Source: Bacteroidia bacterium (GTDB taxonomy: Bacteria > Bacteroidota > Bacteroidia > Chitinophagales > Chitinophagaceae). Taken from it: a stretch of 64,000 bases of DNA. The translations under genes and the position numbers were made by a program. The notes under the pieces were generated by a model. That model worked only from the letters and a program-made list of their open reading frames with translations. It ran no database searches and was not told the origin of the DNA. The stretch covers positions 186,001-250,000 of the forward strand of contig JAUICZ010000003.1 of assembly GCA_030429205.1 (NCBI GenBank), given 5' to 3'. Below, one piece after another: positions 15,488 through 30,133 of this stretch (the first letter of the stretch is position 1; each line of letters starts with the position of its first letter).

Positions 15488-17536
15488 TTATCTGTTGTTG
15501 TAATTTTCTACCACTTTATCTAAATGGTCTATAAATGCTTGCACATCGGGGTCGTAACCATAACCACCTTCTATTAACAAGTTTTCATCGTCGTCAATAA
15601 AGAAATAATAAGGCTGTGCATTAGAACCATATTTTGACGCTTGCAGGTCTGAGTTCCTATTACCCAATGTTGTTACATCTTTCTTCAAAAACTCTGAGTA
15701 GTATTGTTCATTTTCAGGGATCTTAACATTCTGAGCATCGCAATACAAAGACGCAACTATAAAATCATTTTTCATGCGCTTCATTACTCCCGGATCTGAC
15801 CATACCTGCCCTTCCATTTTACGACAGTTGATACAGTTAATACCCGTAAAATCCAGCATGATCGGCTTACCTTGCTTTTTAGACGCCTCCAGCGCCTCAT
15901 TATAATCGTAGTAGGTAACCAAACCATATTTTACTGCAGCTTCCGGCTCGTATATCTTCATATCAGCTACATACCTTTCAGGTCCTTCTCCATCAAGCGT
16001 AGCGTGTCCGCCGCCTGCTGAACCTCCGCCTGCACCTAAAACAAAATCTTGCGTACCCATTGGTGGCACAAAAGCACTCAAGCCTTTTAATGGTGCTCCC
16101 CACATACCCGGCAACATGTATACTGAAAAAGAGAAGCAGCCTATAGCCAGAAATAGTTTGAATATAGACACATACTCCTGCCCAAATAGATTTTTAGGGC
16201 TCTCACTATCATGAGACAACTTCAATTTACCTAACAAGTATAAACCTAATAGAATTGATAGTACGATCCACAATGCAATGAACACTTCTCTATCCATGAT
16301 CCTCCACCCCATTTGCAGGTCAGCATTCGATAAGAACTTCAATGCCAACATCAACTCGATGAAACCAAGGGTTACTTTTACTTGGTTCAACCATCCACCT
16401 GACTTTGCAAGATTATTCAACAAACCCGGAAATACCGCAAACAGTGCGAAAGGCATAGCCAAGCCTATAGAGAAGCCCAACATACCTAATATAGGCCCCT
16501 GAAAACCTCCCATTGCTGCCCCTACGATCAACGGACCAATGATAGGACCTGTACAAGAGAATGATACAATCACTAAGGTCAATGCCATAAAGAAGATACC
16601 TCTAAAGCTCTTCGTATTGGCTTTGGCATCTGTTTTATTTGTCCATGAAGATGGTAGTGTGATTTCGAATGCTCCAAGGAAAGAGATACCAAACACAACA
16701 AATATTATGAAGAATATAAGGTTCGGTATCCAGTGTGTAGATATAATGTTTAACGTATCTGCACCAAATATTGCTGATATAGCAACACCCAGCACTGTAA
16801 AAATGATGATGATAGATAGAGAGTATTGAAATGCATTTCTGATACCTTCTGCTCTGGATGCACTCCTTTTAGTAAAGAAGCTTACTGTTATCGGTATCAT
16901 AGAAAACACACAAGGTGTCAATACCGCTAACAAACCACCAATAAGTGCCAAAAAGAAAATGGCTATCAGAGATCTTTGTTGCTCTTCACCATTATCCGTT
17001 GTATTGCCGGCATCAATTACTGCTTCTTCATCATTTTTTTTTTCCGATGCAGCCGGTGCAGCTGCTCCTCCATTACCAATACGAATAGAGTACTCTTTTG
17101 TTGTTGGTGGCAAACAGGTTTCGTCGTTACAAGTCATGTAACTATACTCACCAGTAATATCAATATCTTCTTTAGCTAGTTCTACTCTTTGTATGAAATC
17201 TACATCTTCAAAGTAATGTACTGTGCCTATATCCTCGTCAATTTCTTCATGAATCACATCACCTTCTTCACGCACATCTCCAACCAGTTTTATGTCTGCG
17301 CTTTCAGTAACAGTAAAACCAGGTGGCAAGAAAGAGCCATCTCCTCCGGGATCTAACGCATAAATATGCCAATGGTCATTTACGTGACAGTGAAAGATCA
17401 GGTCATATACGTTACCCTCAACTTTTTTTGCTGAAAATGTCCACTCGGTGGGATCCTCTATCATCTGTGCTTGTGAGCTGAAAGACGTGAACATCGTCAG
17501 CAAAACAAACGGAAGCAGTTTAAACAGTTTTTTCAT
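15488..17536 (-). CDS. dsbD: thiol:disulfide interchange protein DsbD
   Basis: DsbD passes electrons from cytosolic thioredoxin across the inner membrane to periplasmic thiol enzymes. Starting at ATG 17536 the protein has 682 residues with a signal peptide (LLPFVLLTMFTSFSSQAQ). An N-terminal DsbD alpha-like domain (WHIYALDPGG, CNDETCLPP) and a poly-K/N linker follow. The membrane core of about eight spans holds the redox cysteines CVFSMIP and CTGPIIGP. The C-terminal thioredoxin domain has the INCINCRKME active site (about 545-555). Frame upstream to 17659 would invade purQ and lacks the signal peptide start. An A10 run interrupts the linker at codons 165-168. Confidence 0.93.
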   Translation of the reverse strand: MKKLFKLLPFVLLTMFTSFSSQAQMIEDPTEWTFSAKKVEGNVYDLIFHCHVNDHWHIYALDPGGDGSFLPPGFTVTESADIKLVGDVREEGDVIHEEIDEDIGTVHYFEDVDFIQRVELAKEDIDITGEYSYMTCNDETCLPPTTKEYSIRIGNGGAAAPAASEKKNDEEAVIDAGNTTDNGEEQQRSLIAIFFLALIGGLLAVLTPCVFSMIPITVSFFTKRSASRAEGIRNAFQYSLSIIIIFTVLGVAISAIFGADTLNIISTHWIPNLIFFIIFVVFGISFLGAFEITLPSSWTNKTDAKANTKSFRGIFFMALTLVIVSFSCTGPIIGPLIVGAAMGGFQGPILGMLGFSIGLAMPFALFAVFPGLLNNLAKSGGWLNQVKVTLGFIELMLALKFLSNADLQMGWRIMDREVFIALWIVLSILLGLYLLGKLKLSHDSESPKNLFGQEYVSIFKLFLAIGCFSFSVYMLPGMWGAPLKGLSAFVPPMGTQDFVLGAGGGSAGGGHATLDGEGPERYVADMKIYEPEAAVKYGLVTYYDYNEALEASKKQGKPIMLDFTGINCINCRKMEGQVWSDPGVMKRMKNDFIVASLYCDAQNVKIPENEQYYSEFLKKDVTTLGNRNSDLQASKYGSNAQPYYFFIDDDENLLIEGGYGYDPDVQAFIDHLDKVVENYNNR

Positions 17537-17648
17537 TTCTAAAGAGTTGATATCTTTTTCAAAGAAACCTCTTTTTATAAAAAGGTTAGTTTCCGGTGCT
17601 TGTTTTAGGAAAACTTTAGCGGTACGCCGCCAAAGTAAATATAGTAAA

Positions 17649-18341
17649 TCAATTAACACTACTCAAAGCAGCAAGTATCAACCTACCATCTATATTATTC
17701 AAACTATCGCTGCATGCCCTTTCCGGGTGCGGCATCATACCAAATACGTTTTTACCTTCGTTACACACACCTGCAATATCATCGATAGCACCATTAGGGT
17801 TAGCCCCCTCTGCCACACTTCCATCGGCATCGCAATATGTAAACAATACCTGGCCGTTATCTTTCAGCTTCTTTAGCGTATCAGCATCTGCATAATAGCG
17901 CCCCTCGCCATGAGCTATAGGTACTTTAAGTACTTTATCACCCACGGTTTCGCCTATAATGTTATCATTACCGGCAGACTTTAAAAACACATTTTTACAG
18001 GTAAAATTCTGATGATCGTTCAGCAACAAAGCTCCCGGCAACAAACCAGACTCGCAAAGCACCTGAAAACCATTACATACCCCAAATACTTTCCCCCCTT
18101 TGTTCGCGAACTCTATCACACTTTCCATCATAGGGCTGAAACGAGCAATAGAACCACAACGCAGGTAATCCCCATAAGAGAATCCTCCGGGCAGTATAAT
18201 ACAATCATCAGTAGTAAAATCGCTCAGGTCTCTATCTTTATGCCAAAGCACTACTACTTCTTGTTTCAGATCATCTCTAAGTGCGTATATCATATCGTTA
18301 TCGCAATTAGAACCGGGAAAGACTACTACTCCAAATTTCAT
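17649..18341 (-). CDS. purQ: phosphoribosylformylglycinamidine synthase subunit PurQ
   Basis: The glutaminase subunit of FGAM synthase, which supplies ammonia for the fourth step of purine synthesis. The 230-residue class I amidotransferase shows VVVFPGSNCDNDM at the start, LPGGFSYGDYLR (about 50-61), the nucleophile motif GVCNGFQVL (about 92-100), and the His/Glu pair of MMPHPERAC near the end. The small-subunit form implies separate PurL and PurS elsewhere. It is 12 bases downstream of the DUF6427 gene and likely co-transcribed. Confidence 0.96.
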   Translation of the reverse strand: MKFGVVVFPGSNCDNDMIYALRDDLKQEVVVLWHKDRDLSDFTTDDCIILPGGFSYGDYLRCGSIARFSPMMESVIEFANKGGKVFGVCNGFQVLCESGLLPGALLLNDHQNFTCKNVFLKSAGNDNIIGETVGDKVLKVPIAHGEGRYYADADTLKKLKDNGQVLFTYCDADGSVAEGANPNGAIDDIAGVCNEGKNVFGMMPHPERACSDSLNNIDGRLILAALSSVN

Positions 18342-27008: not shown

Positions 27009-28364
27009 ATGTTTTTAAACAGGTTTCTACTAGCAGTTATATCGACTCTTATCTTCAATATTTGCAGCGCCCAAAAGCTTATCATTTCGGGCCCTATGCA
27101 GGGATATACAGAGTACAGAACAGCTCAGATATGGGTATCAGTTTCTCGTCATGCCGAAGCAGTGCATATTGAGTACTGGAATACAAAAGACTCTGTATCT
27201 GATATCGCTATTTATAAGCAACCATTAGGTAATGAAGTAAACCCCATAAGTATTGAGTTAACAAACCTGCAGCCTAATACTGTTTATGAATATGTAGTTA
27301 TAGCAAATAGATTTAACGGAAAACCATCGCAATCTGTAAAAGGTCGGTTCAAGACTATGGAAATTAAGGGTTATAAAGAAGCTCCTGATTTTAGTTTCAT
27401 AACAGGATCTTGTGCTTTTTTTCCGGATGACATGAATAGCGACTATGCCAAAAAGCACATTGGTGATCAAAAAATATTTACCACAATGAGTACCACAGGG
27501 GCTGACTTTATGCTCTGGCTGGGCGATAATTGGTATACGCTGGCGCAAGACTATCATAGCGCATGGGGACTAGCCGACCGTGCCCGAAGAGTAAGAGCAA
27601 CAGAAGAGTTGCAACCACTACTATCAAGCATGCCTAACTATGCCATTTGGGACGACCATGATTATGGGCCTAATAATGCAGGCAGCTCATATATCTTAAA
27701 AGAAGAAACAAGAGAAGTGTTTAAAAATTACTGGTGTAACCCCACTTATGGCGAAAATGATAAAGGCATATACACGATGCTTCAATACCACGATGTTTCT
27801 TTTATAATGCTGGATGACAGAACATGGCGTAGCTCTGACAATATGAAAGACAGTGTAGGCGGTAAACCCAACCCCGAAAAAGTAATGTTTGGACCTCAAC
27901 AAATGAGGTGGTTGAAAGATGTGTTACTCCAAAGCAACAGCAGCAGTTTTAAGATAATTACTACAGGTAGCCAAATGTTGAATACCTACTCTCCCTACGA
28001 CTGTTTTTACCACTTCCCTATAGAGTTCAAAGAGCTGATTGACTTTATAGCGGATAATGATATAGAAGGAGTAGTTTTCTTAACCGGAGACAGACACCAC
28101 AGCGAAGTATTGAAATATAAACGCAATGGTAAATACCCTCTTTATGAGATGACCGTTTCACCACTTACATCAAGACTGTATGATGCGGGCGGTGTTGAAA
28201 AAGGTATGCCGATCCGTATTAAAAAAGTAGAGGGTATACACAACTTTGGCAAAGTGAGTATTACAGGAGCATATGGTAACAGACAATTAAAACTTAGCTA
28301 TTATGATAAAGAAGGAAACGAATTAGACAGCTGGATTGTAAACCAAAAAGAGCTAAAAGACTAA
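27009..28364 (+). CDS. PhoD-like alkaline phosphatase family protein
   Basis: Starting at ATG 27009 the product has 451 residues, with a signal peptide (LLAVISTLIFNICSAQ). A fibronectin-like N-terminal domain is followed by a PhoD metallophosphatase domain: FITGSCAFFPDD, LWLGDNWYTL, YAIWDDHDYGPNNAG and FLTGDRHHSEV carry the metal ligands. Family members hydrolyse phosphodiesters or monoesters outside the cytoplasm. The open frame extending back to 26754 overlaps pdhC and is rejected. Its stop codon overlaps the convergent dnaX stop. Confidence 0.9.
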   Translation: MFLNRFLLAVISTLIFNICSAQKLIISGPMQGYTEYRTAQIWVSVSRHAEAVHIEYWNTKDSVSDIAIYKQPLGNEVNPISIELTNLQPNTVYEYVVIANRFNGKPSQSVKGRFKTMEIKGYKEAPDFSFITGSCAFFPDDMNSDYAKKHIGDQKIFTTMSTTGADFMLWLGDNWYTLAQDYHSAWGLADRARRVRATEELQPLLSSMPNYAIWDDHDYGPNNAGSSYILKEETREVFKNYWCNPTYGENDKGIYTMLQYHDVSFIMLDDRTWRSSDNMKDSVGGKPNPEKVMFGPQQMRWLKDVLLQSNSSSFKIITTGSQMLNTYSPYDCFYHFPIEFKELIDFIADNDIEGVVFLTGDRHHSEVLKYKRNGKYPLYEMTVSPLTSRLYDAGGVEKGMPIRIKKVEGIHNFGKVSITGAYGNRQLKLSYYDKEGNELDSWIVNQKELKD

Positions 28365-30133
28365 TAATCTATTTGCAAACCGAGTGCGTCTTTCAGTTTT
28401 CCGAGTGCGGGGTTCTTTTTTACCATATCGTCCAAGACCTCTTGCTTGCTCCTCACTTTATCTCCCTGTTGTGCCTGCACTTCTTCATTCAGTTTAACCT
28501 CTGTTGTTACCCTGACCATGACACCGGTTTTCTCTCTATAGAATTCAAGGATATCATTCCTTTGTTCCAGCGCATAAGTTTCTGTAAGGTCTGTAGGATT
28601 AATGATACGCACCTCATTCGGTGGATGAAACTCAGGCACCATCAACAACAGCTGGGCATGTAGCATCATTTTATTACTCTCAAGAATATCTTGTTTAAAC
28701 TCTTCAAATAACTGAGTAACTAATGTCTGTGTCAACTCCTTATCTTCTACCTTCTGCTCAACCGCATTGTTCACCACATCATCTATCTCACTCAGCATAT
28801 TGCTGGATATCCTGCGGGATGCACCTTGCGTTCGTTTTGCATTAGCAGTTTTTACTGGGGCTGATTGTATAGCCTGCTCAACTGAAGGTTTTGGTATAGG
28901 CTTTTCTGTAGGAGAAAGTGCTGGTGGAGGTGAAGGCGGAGGTGGTGGCTCCTCCGGTTGAACCTGTTCTTGCTTTTTAGGTGGCGGAGCTGCTGCTACC
29001 TGACTATCGTTTTTTTTTACCGCGTCAGGTTGTGTAGCCTGCAGTAAATAACATAGCCTGATGAAACACATCTCTACATGCAGCCTTTTATTCTGGGCAT
29101 TCCTGTAGTTTAGTATCGCATCACTCAACACATTGAGTGCAGAAACAATGAATGATGGGGGCATTTGCCCGGCCTTCTCATTATATATTGGTTTATGGTC
29201 GTTAGGCACATCCAACAACCTTGCCATACGCGTATCTTTGCACAATAGCAAGTTTCTGATGTGGTCTGCCATACCTTCCAATATAACATCCCCCTCAAAA
29301 CCTCGTTCCAGAGCACTGTCAACCTGCAAAAGCGTTTCACTGACATCCTGCGCCAATACATGGTCTACTAAACCAAAATAGTAGTCTGCATCCAGCAAAT
29401 TCAGATGCTCCATCGTATTATTATAAGTCAGCTTGCCATCTGTAAAGCTGACAATACGATCGAACATACTCAGCGCATCACGCATAGCGCCCTCACTCTT
29501 TTGAGCGATAACATGCAATGCTGCTTCATCAGCTTCCACCCCTTCTTTAAGGGCAATGGCCTGCAGGTGTGCGCTAATGTCATCAGATGTAATTCTTTTA
29601 AAGTCGAATATCTGACAGCGACTGAGTATTGTCGGTAGTATTTTATGCTTCTCTGTAGTCGCCAGAATGAATATCGCGTAAGACGGCGGTTCTTCCAGCG
29701 TTTTCAGAAAAGCATTAAAGGCAGAGGCACTCAACATGTGTACCTCATCTATAATGTATATTTTGTATTTACCTGCCTGCGGTGCAAACCTTACCTGGTT
29801 CACCAACTCTCTGATATCATCTACAGAGTTGTTACTGGCAGCATCCAGCTCAAATACATTGAACGAAGTATGGTTATTAAAATTCTGGCAGGTAGCACAT
29901 TCACCGCAAGCCTCCACTTCAGAAGTAGGGTTCTCACAGTTAATAGTTTTAGCCAGTATCCTGGCACAAGTAGTTTTACCAACACCACGCGGCCCGCAAA
30001 AAAGGTAGGCATGCGCCAGGTGTTCAGACTTAATGGCATTCTTCAGCGTAGTGGTAATATGCCCCTGACCAACCACAGTGTCAAATGTCTGCGGGCGGTA
30101 CTTACGTGCTGATACAATATAATTCTCTGCCAT
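28361..30133 (-). CDS. dnaX: DNA polymerase III subunit gamma/tau
   Basis: The clamp-loader ATPase. Starting at ATG 30133 it has 590 residues: Walker A GPRGVGKTT (about 43-51), a zinc site (NCENPT...CGECATC, about 64-84), DEVHMLS Walker B (about 124), the SRC sensor, and domain III to about residue 365. A proline-rich linker (PPPPPSPPP) and a tau-specific C-terminal region follow. A run of nine A residues at codons 372-375 marks the boundary between the ATPase core and the linker and may allow a shorter gamma form. An ATG four codons upstream is less likely. Confidence 0.96.
   Translation of the reverse strand: MAENYIVSARKYRPQTFDTVVGQGHITTTLKNAIKSEHLAHAYLFCGPRGVGKTTCARILAKTINCENPTSEVEACGECATCQNFNNHTSFNVFELDAASNNSVDDIRELVNQVRFAPQAGKYKIYIIDEVHMLSASAFNAFLKTLEEPPSYAIFILATTEKHKILPTILSRCQIFDFKRITSDDISAHLQAIALKEGVEADEAALHVIAQKSEGAMRDALSMFDRIVSFTDGKLTYNNTMEHLNLLDADYYFGLVDHVLAQDVSETLLQVDSALERGFEGDVILEGMADHIRNLLLCKDTRMARLLDVPNDHKPIYNEKAGQMPPSFIVSALNVLSDAILNYRNAQNKRLHVEMCFIRLCYLLQATQPDAVKKNDSQVAAAPPPKKQEQVQPEEPPPPPSPPPALSPTEKPIPKPSVEQAIQSAPVKTANAKRTQGASRRISSNMLSEIDDVVNNAVEQKVEDKELTQTLVTQLFEEFKQDILESNKMMLHAQLLLMVPEFHPPNEVRIINPTDLTETYALEQRNDILEFYREKTGVMVRVTTEVKLNEEVQAQQGDKVRSKQEVLDDMVKKNPALGKLKDALGLQIDY
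29010..29018 (-). other. A9 slippery run in dnaX, candidate gamma-form site
   Basis: On the coding strand GCGGT-A9-CGATAG is read GTA AAA AAA AAC GAT. Adding one A or shifting -1 gives GTA AAA AAA AAA CGA TAG (376 residues). Losing one A also terminates, after 378 residues. The site lies at the end of domain III. Confidence 0.55.

Follow-up and report, generated by a model that had tools for sequence, protein, structure and literature searches.

The window, a stretch of 64,000 nucleotides from a Bacteroidia genome, holds a dnaX gene with a run of nine consecutive adenines, and the question this raises is whether the run allows one gene to supply both the gamma and the tau forms of the clamp loader. 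By its profile matches, the gene is dnaX, encoding a Bacteroidetes-type DNA polymerase III gamma/tau protein (28361–30133, minus strand): the product scored 684.2 bits against NCBIfam PRK14971, just below the curated cut-off of 685, and its residues 5–361 matched TIGR02397 above cut-off. Translation from the ATG at 30133 gave an uninterrupted tau of 590 residues, as the first-pass annotation had stated. Pfam matches to the AAA+ ATPase, lid and domain III cover the core common to gamma and tau (residues 1–370; 29024–30133, minus strand), and the tau-only C-terminal stretch, scanned as residues 412–590 (28364–28900, minus strand), matched PRK14971 positions 459–614.

The run appears as T9 on the forward strand (29010–29018), and the coding strand reads GCG GTA AAA AAA AAC GAT AGT CAG G, with GTA as codon 372, AAA as codons 373–374 and AAC as codon 375. 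Because the Pfam domain III match (residues 244–370) ends at residue 370, we place this candidate slippage run at the core/linker boundary, directly behind domain III, where the first-pass annotation had put it. Its two predicted truncations were likewise confirmed by translation. With an additional A, or after the ribosome shifts by −1, the sequence reads V-K-K-K-R and then TAG (29006–29004, minus strand), for a predicted gamma of 376 residues. With one A removed or two added, it reads V-K-K-T-I-V-R and then TAG (28998–28996, minus strand), for a predicted gamma of 378 residues.

We consider it very likely that the A9 is a programmed slippage site at which RNA polymerase slippage yields gamma beside tau. 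RNA polymerase would slip on A9/T9 and produce a mixture of dnaX mRNAs with 9, 10, 8, 11 or other numbers of A's. Messages in the templated frame would give tau (590 residues), and translation of slipped messages would end at a TAG a few codons past the run, leaving gamma (376 or 378 residues), that is, the clamp-loader motor without the tau tail. From the sequence we infer that slippage occurs in vivo, as well as its transcriptional nature, its efficiency and the use of both products.

A single A9 is unremarkable in this genome, because the 3.64 Mb assembly holds 45 distinct A9+/T9+ sites (48 overlapping matches), which also rejects any idea that the run is unique there; 23 of the other 44 sites lie inside some open reading frame (ORF) of at least 100 amino acids. 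One of the window's own sites, an A10 at 17034–17043 on the coding strand of a 723-residue DsbD-like ORF (15488–17659, minus strand), sits between the DsbD_N and transmembrane matches and is another slippage candidate. Elsewhere in the same genome, a locus at C4:1070500–1073700 (L395) has one ORF of at least 896 codons with two A9 runs. What makes the dnaX A9 significant is its conservation among relatives.

To describe that conservation we used 235 dnaX loci, made up of the best 80 of at least 594 matches, the window gene, one congener and 153 loci from further genomes; dropping 2 duplicates left 233 distinct genes. From a family sample (60 genomes) they include every one of the 58 dnaX matches, and from a phylum sample (198 genomes) 102 of 196 dnaX matches, the latter picked non-randomly to span families; shares among the 233 genes describe this chosen set and are not prevalence estimates. 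The sequences are related, so the counts are not independent, and homopolymer errors are possible in individual draft genomes.

Across the phylum, a run of at least nine A's stood at the core/linker boundary in 189 of the 233 genes (A9 in 57, A10 in 122, A11 in 9, A12 in 1), starting at about residues 363–402 in window numbering; the remaining genes had A8 (1), A7 (5) or at most six A's (38). In the dnaX cores of the same set there was no such run in 219,669 bases, nor at any of the 102 Lys-Lys codon pairs counted (235 rows), and the flanks of the 80 best-match loci contained 21 A9+/T9+ sites in 398,907 bases. Within the family sample, 55 of 58 dnaX genes had the run, the exceptions being L169 (A7), L174 (A8) and L183 (A7), and all 58 were single ORFs. 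All three members of the genus with an assembled linker (the window's own genome, L086 and L087) had A9; the fourth genus genome gave no real dnaX match. Retention of the A run in relatives, an alignment check named beforehand, was thus observed at both the family and the phylum level. Thirty further loci, found with another query and lying outside the 233, comprised 21 one-ORF genes with at least ten A's, 5 one-ORF genes without a run, 3 two-ORF genes and 1 gene cut by a contig end; two of these loci repeat genomes already counted. One ORF was kept without a run in 38 of the 233 genes, including L169, L174 and L183 of the window's family, and therefore gamma cannot be needed everywhere by the slippage route.

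The stop codons that follow the run were also conserved in relatives. Among the 138 run genes with a single ORF, both off-frames were closed within 8 codons in 88%, compared with 16% when the codons after the run were shuffled (300 shuffles, highest joint value 25%), a null that ignores relatedness. The −1 frame was closed within 3 codons in 93% of these genes (24% expected), and in 88% a stop followed within 8 codons in the +1 frame (36% expected). Genes with two ORFs and the tau tail at −1 (n = 48) gave the same picture, with both off-frames closed in 88% compared with 16% in shuffles (highest shuffle 35%). There was no excess of closed off-frames in 37 one-ORF genes without a run (5% versus 10% in shuffles). 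The layout of stops and run looks selected as a whole, and the suggestion in the first-pass annotation that it serves programmed gamma synthesis gains support from the conserved run and the conserved stops, with transcriptional slippage favoured over ribosomal frameshifting.

The frame of the tau tail varied among the 189 run genes: it was 0 in 138, −1 in 48 and +1 in two (L077 and L191), and one gene (L057) reached a contig end. In the 50 genes with a shifted tail, gamma is encoded in frame and tau requires a shift. On a gene tree of 290 core sequences (FastTree, dnaX alone), we counted at least 22 changes of tail frame among run genes, a pattern that constant sampling of all frames would produce. 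The two-ORF genes are not simply errors, since they also occur in the single-contig genomes L190, L194 and L201; these genomes, together with the many related species that share the two-ORF state, disfavour assembly error as its general cause. L059 and L360 lack a long A run; their dnaX zero frame closes with TAA and the tail follows at +1, reflecting either an error or another shift site.

Gamma might instead arise by −1 ribosomal frameshifting on A_AAA_AAA or A_AAA_AAC, as in Escherichia coli dnaX on A_AAA_AAG. The window gene has the first two heptamers in frame and lacks the E. coli one. An in-frame heptamer is contained in every run of at least nine A's, the tail lies at −1 in 48 of the 50 two-ORF run genes and the −1 stop is the closer one, all of which would suit this route; we nevertheless judge it unlikely. 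Frameshifting by −1 never enters the +1 frame, so the excess of +1-frame stops favours slippage, and the two +1-tail genes also speak against the ribosomal route. The run occurs in all three codon phases with an identical floor of nine A's in each, including phases 1 and 2, where 8 or 7 A's would suffice for a −1 heptamer; nine is the length reported for efficient slippage by bacterial RNA polymerase (PMC5009743). The base after the run is mostly C, not G (84 C, 71 G, 34 T). A scan of RNA structure in ten windows of 40 nt, all lying no more than about 150 nt from the run, showed no peak there (186 genes; mean z between −0.04 and −0.32, standard error about 0.08), though it could miss weak or unusual structure; on the downstream side of these genes, where mean z was −0.13 to −0.32, it revealed no stem-loop stimulator. 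In the window gene itself, the 60-nt flanks gave z 0.77 (downstream) and 1.01, and neither folded better than shuffles. With a run in all phases, no structure peak and repeated changes of frame, RNA polymerase slippage fits better than E. coli-type frameshifting, which is disfavoured by the phase-independent floor, the +1 stops and the missing peak.

Two further readings deny the run a role in RNA-level recoding. If the linker were simply lysine-rich and the A run a by-product of AAA codons without a role, the many A9+/T9+ sites of the genome, about half of them within ORFs, and the 38 one-ORF relatives that manage without a run would be readily understood. We regard this as very improbable: chance lysine codons do not account for a run that recurs at one place in 189 of 233 genes but is absent from their cores, in three different codon phases, with off-frame stops far above the codon-shuffle null and with 50 genes that have no full tau unless shifted. 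The run might also be a hypermutable homopolymer that drives DNA-level phase variation of tau, a reading to which the variation in run length between species (A9–A12) and the frequent changes of tail frame would conform. Tau is expected to be essential, and an off state would consequently be lethal; moreover, stops in both off-frames define a gamma-sized product, and the two-ORF state is common to many related species. Phase variation therefore seems barely credible, and slippage by RNA polymerase remains our preferred explanation for the A-run genes.

Some Bacteroidales dnaX genes had a different element at the same place. In L047, L051 and L062, which lack the run and come from metagenome-assembled genomes, a TAG stands at the dnaX boundary and the tau tail continues in the same frame, making these candidate readthrough sites (L047:2788–2790, L051:4096–4098 and L062:4105–4107, with 46 more loci among L298–L349). 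The family sample of L051 comprised 121 genomes, 114 with a dnaX match, of which we examined 91 (the 30 best first, then rows selected by ORF length). A same-frame TAG was present in 48 of the 91 loci and a run of at least nine A's in 20 (16 two-ORF, 4 one-ORF); the rest were 16 one-ORF genes with neither, four genes without a run and with the tail at +1 (3) or −1 (1), and 3 contig ends. Together with L047's genome, which lies outside the family sample, 49 species have the element, and the stop is TAG in 49 of 49. Agreement among 49 species means that the UAG is not a sequencing error.

The sequence after the UAG was strongly constrained. Positions 4, 5, 7, 8, 10 and 11 were invariant in 49 of 49 genes (A T. 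G C. A G), position 6 was T or A, position 9 was A in 45 of 49 and position 12 was A or G in 48 of 49, for a consensus of UAG AUW GCA AGR. A hairpin of 3–4 pairs is possible from position 14 or 16 in all 49, each in one or another of three registers picked after viewing the sequences; it fitted 34 of 34 distinct segments, compared with a mean of 25.4 and a maximum of 32 when the 3′ arms were reassigned at random 2000 times, and its folding energy was no better than that of shuffles (mean z −0.31). Between 30 and 100 nt past the UAG, predicted structure exceeded that of shuffles (mean z about −0.9 to −1.1, n = 49), unlike in the flanks of the A runs. The UAG-gene tails were 186–259 codons long, and the three that were scanned matched the tau end of PRK14971 (E = 4e-17, 1e-12 and 2e-8). 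Across 11 close pairs, 59% of tail changes fell at third codon positions.

Several other accounts of the UAG were considered. Because tau itself terminates in TAG in 9 of the 49 genes, release factor RF1 was above cut-off in 24 of 25 UAG-gene genomes and PylS was below cut-off, the UAG is not simply a sense codon. Global reassignment of UAG is rejected on the first two of these counts, and pyrrolysine is not supported, with PylS above cut-off in 0 of 25 UAG-gene genomes, weak matches in 10 of 25, and 1 of 14 controls above cut-off. Separate initiation of the tail is disfavoured, as the first ATG, GTG or TTG past the UAG lay 11 to 90 codons on, at no fixed place. Nor does the motif look like a genome-wide repeat: with at most one mismatch it was found at dnaX in 20 of 25 genomes, the other 5 dnaX copies deviating from the pattern, and only 4 one-mismatch sites occurred elsewhere in the 25 genomes. 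Those UAG genes whose cores were complete, 28 in number, grouped as a single clade on the gene tree (support 97), next to genes lacking both the run and the UAG.

We read the UAG of these Bacteroidales dnaX genes as programmed UAG readthrough in place of slippage. Among the papers searched, we found none that describes it. In L328 and L348, of the same family sample, the zero frame ends CYT AGC TAG and an LARSPQAEH-like tau tail follows at +1; this may be a +1 frameshift with a link to the UAG element. L316, L320, L322, L325 and 12 other loci of the sample have a one-ORF dnaX with neither run nor UAG, as do several Bacteroidales among L001–L080; such genes may lack a gamma product or obtain it by another route.

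Taken together, it is likely that Bacteroidota have long used recoding, under selection, to produce gamma and tau, robustly enough for the frame of the tail to drift (0, −1, +1) around the poly-A, and that one Bacteroidales lineage lost the run and gained UAG readthrough with the AUWGCAAGR context and perhaps a small hairpin. Changes between slippage, tail frames and apparent UAG readthrough at one spot suggest that having both products is what is selected for. Under laboratory conditions, E. coli can do without gamma. If the proposed scheme is true, cells across much of the phylum express a replication enzyme through built-in errors of RNA polymerase, and the genome sequence by itself yields only tau or only gamma. 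Should UAG readthrough hold true, the ways of obtaining gamma and tau would include a stop codon in addition to slippage, frameshifting and proteolysis. Natural experiments are at hand in related species, some of which have the run, some the UAG and some neither. The window's A9 is ordinary in kind; what would come as a surprise to specialists is the UAG in Bacteroidales dnaX.

For the UAG genes, the closest parallel we draw is with murine leukaemia virus gag, where readthrough of UAG involves an 8-nt spacer (PMC4178896). In both, an in-frame UAG is followed by a short spacer (8 nt there, 10–12 nt here) and then an RNA hairpin, a candidate one in Bacteroidales. Unlike gag, dnaX is a bacterial chromosomal gene, with a 3–4 pair hairpin chosen by eye and no pseudoknot shown; the comparison implies no common descent.

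The A-run genes have nearer counterparts. E. coli dnaX, which combines A_AAA_AAG with a Shine-Dalgarno-like stimulator and a hairpin (PMC3711429), is the same gene recoded at a comparable place with comparable products, and differs from the genes described here in that these have no structure peak beside the run. Thermus thermophilus dnaX makes gamma by transcriptional slippage on an A9 (PMC1088944, PMC5009743); the window gene resembles it in having A9 in the tau frame with close stops in both other frames. Gamma comes from slipped mRNAs in Thermus, and the same origin is proposed for the window on sequence grounds. Three features that mark the Thermus type were found for the window dnaX, namely at least nine A's at the core/linker boundary, stops in both frames and conservation beyond codon need. 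Bacteroidota differ from Thermus, a member of another phylum, in that the run is widely kept, varies from 9 to 12 A's, occupies all codon phases and is accompanied by changes of tail frame. A 2016 review also mentions a reversed form of dnaX slippage and proteolytic gamma in Caulobacter (PMC5009743). In the sections drawn on here, Antonov et al. (2013) describe 17 two-ORF dnaX genes from 12 genera, nine of them with 10 A's, with poly-A between the gamma ORF and the tau tail, and propose transcriptional realignment (PMC3711429). Two-ORF members of our set share this arrangement. All 17 genes of Antonov et al. shift by −1, whereas ours comprise 48 run genes at −1 and 2 at +1; three Chlorobi are named in section 23 of that paper, and Bacteroidetes may be among the rest (PMC3711429). 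Their genes have two ORFs, and the one-ORF form, including the window gene, was the commoner here (138 genes in a non-random set). No phylum-wide account of dnaX slippage in Bacteroidota was found in the literature searched, which reached few subscription papers. The window gene is thus of a kind already known from Thermus and from Antonov et al. (2013), and what is striking is the breadth of its conservation.
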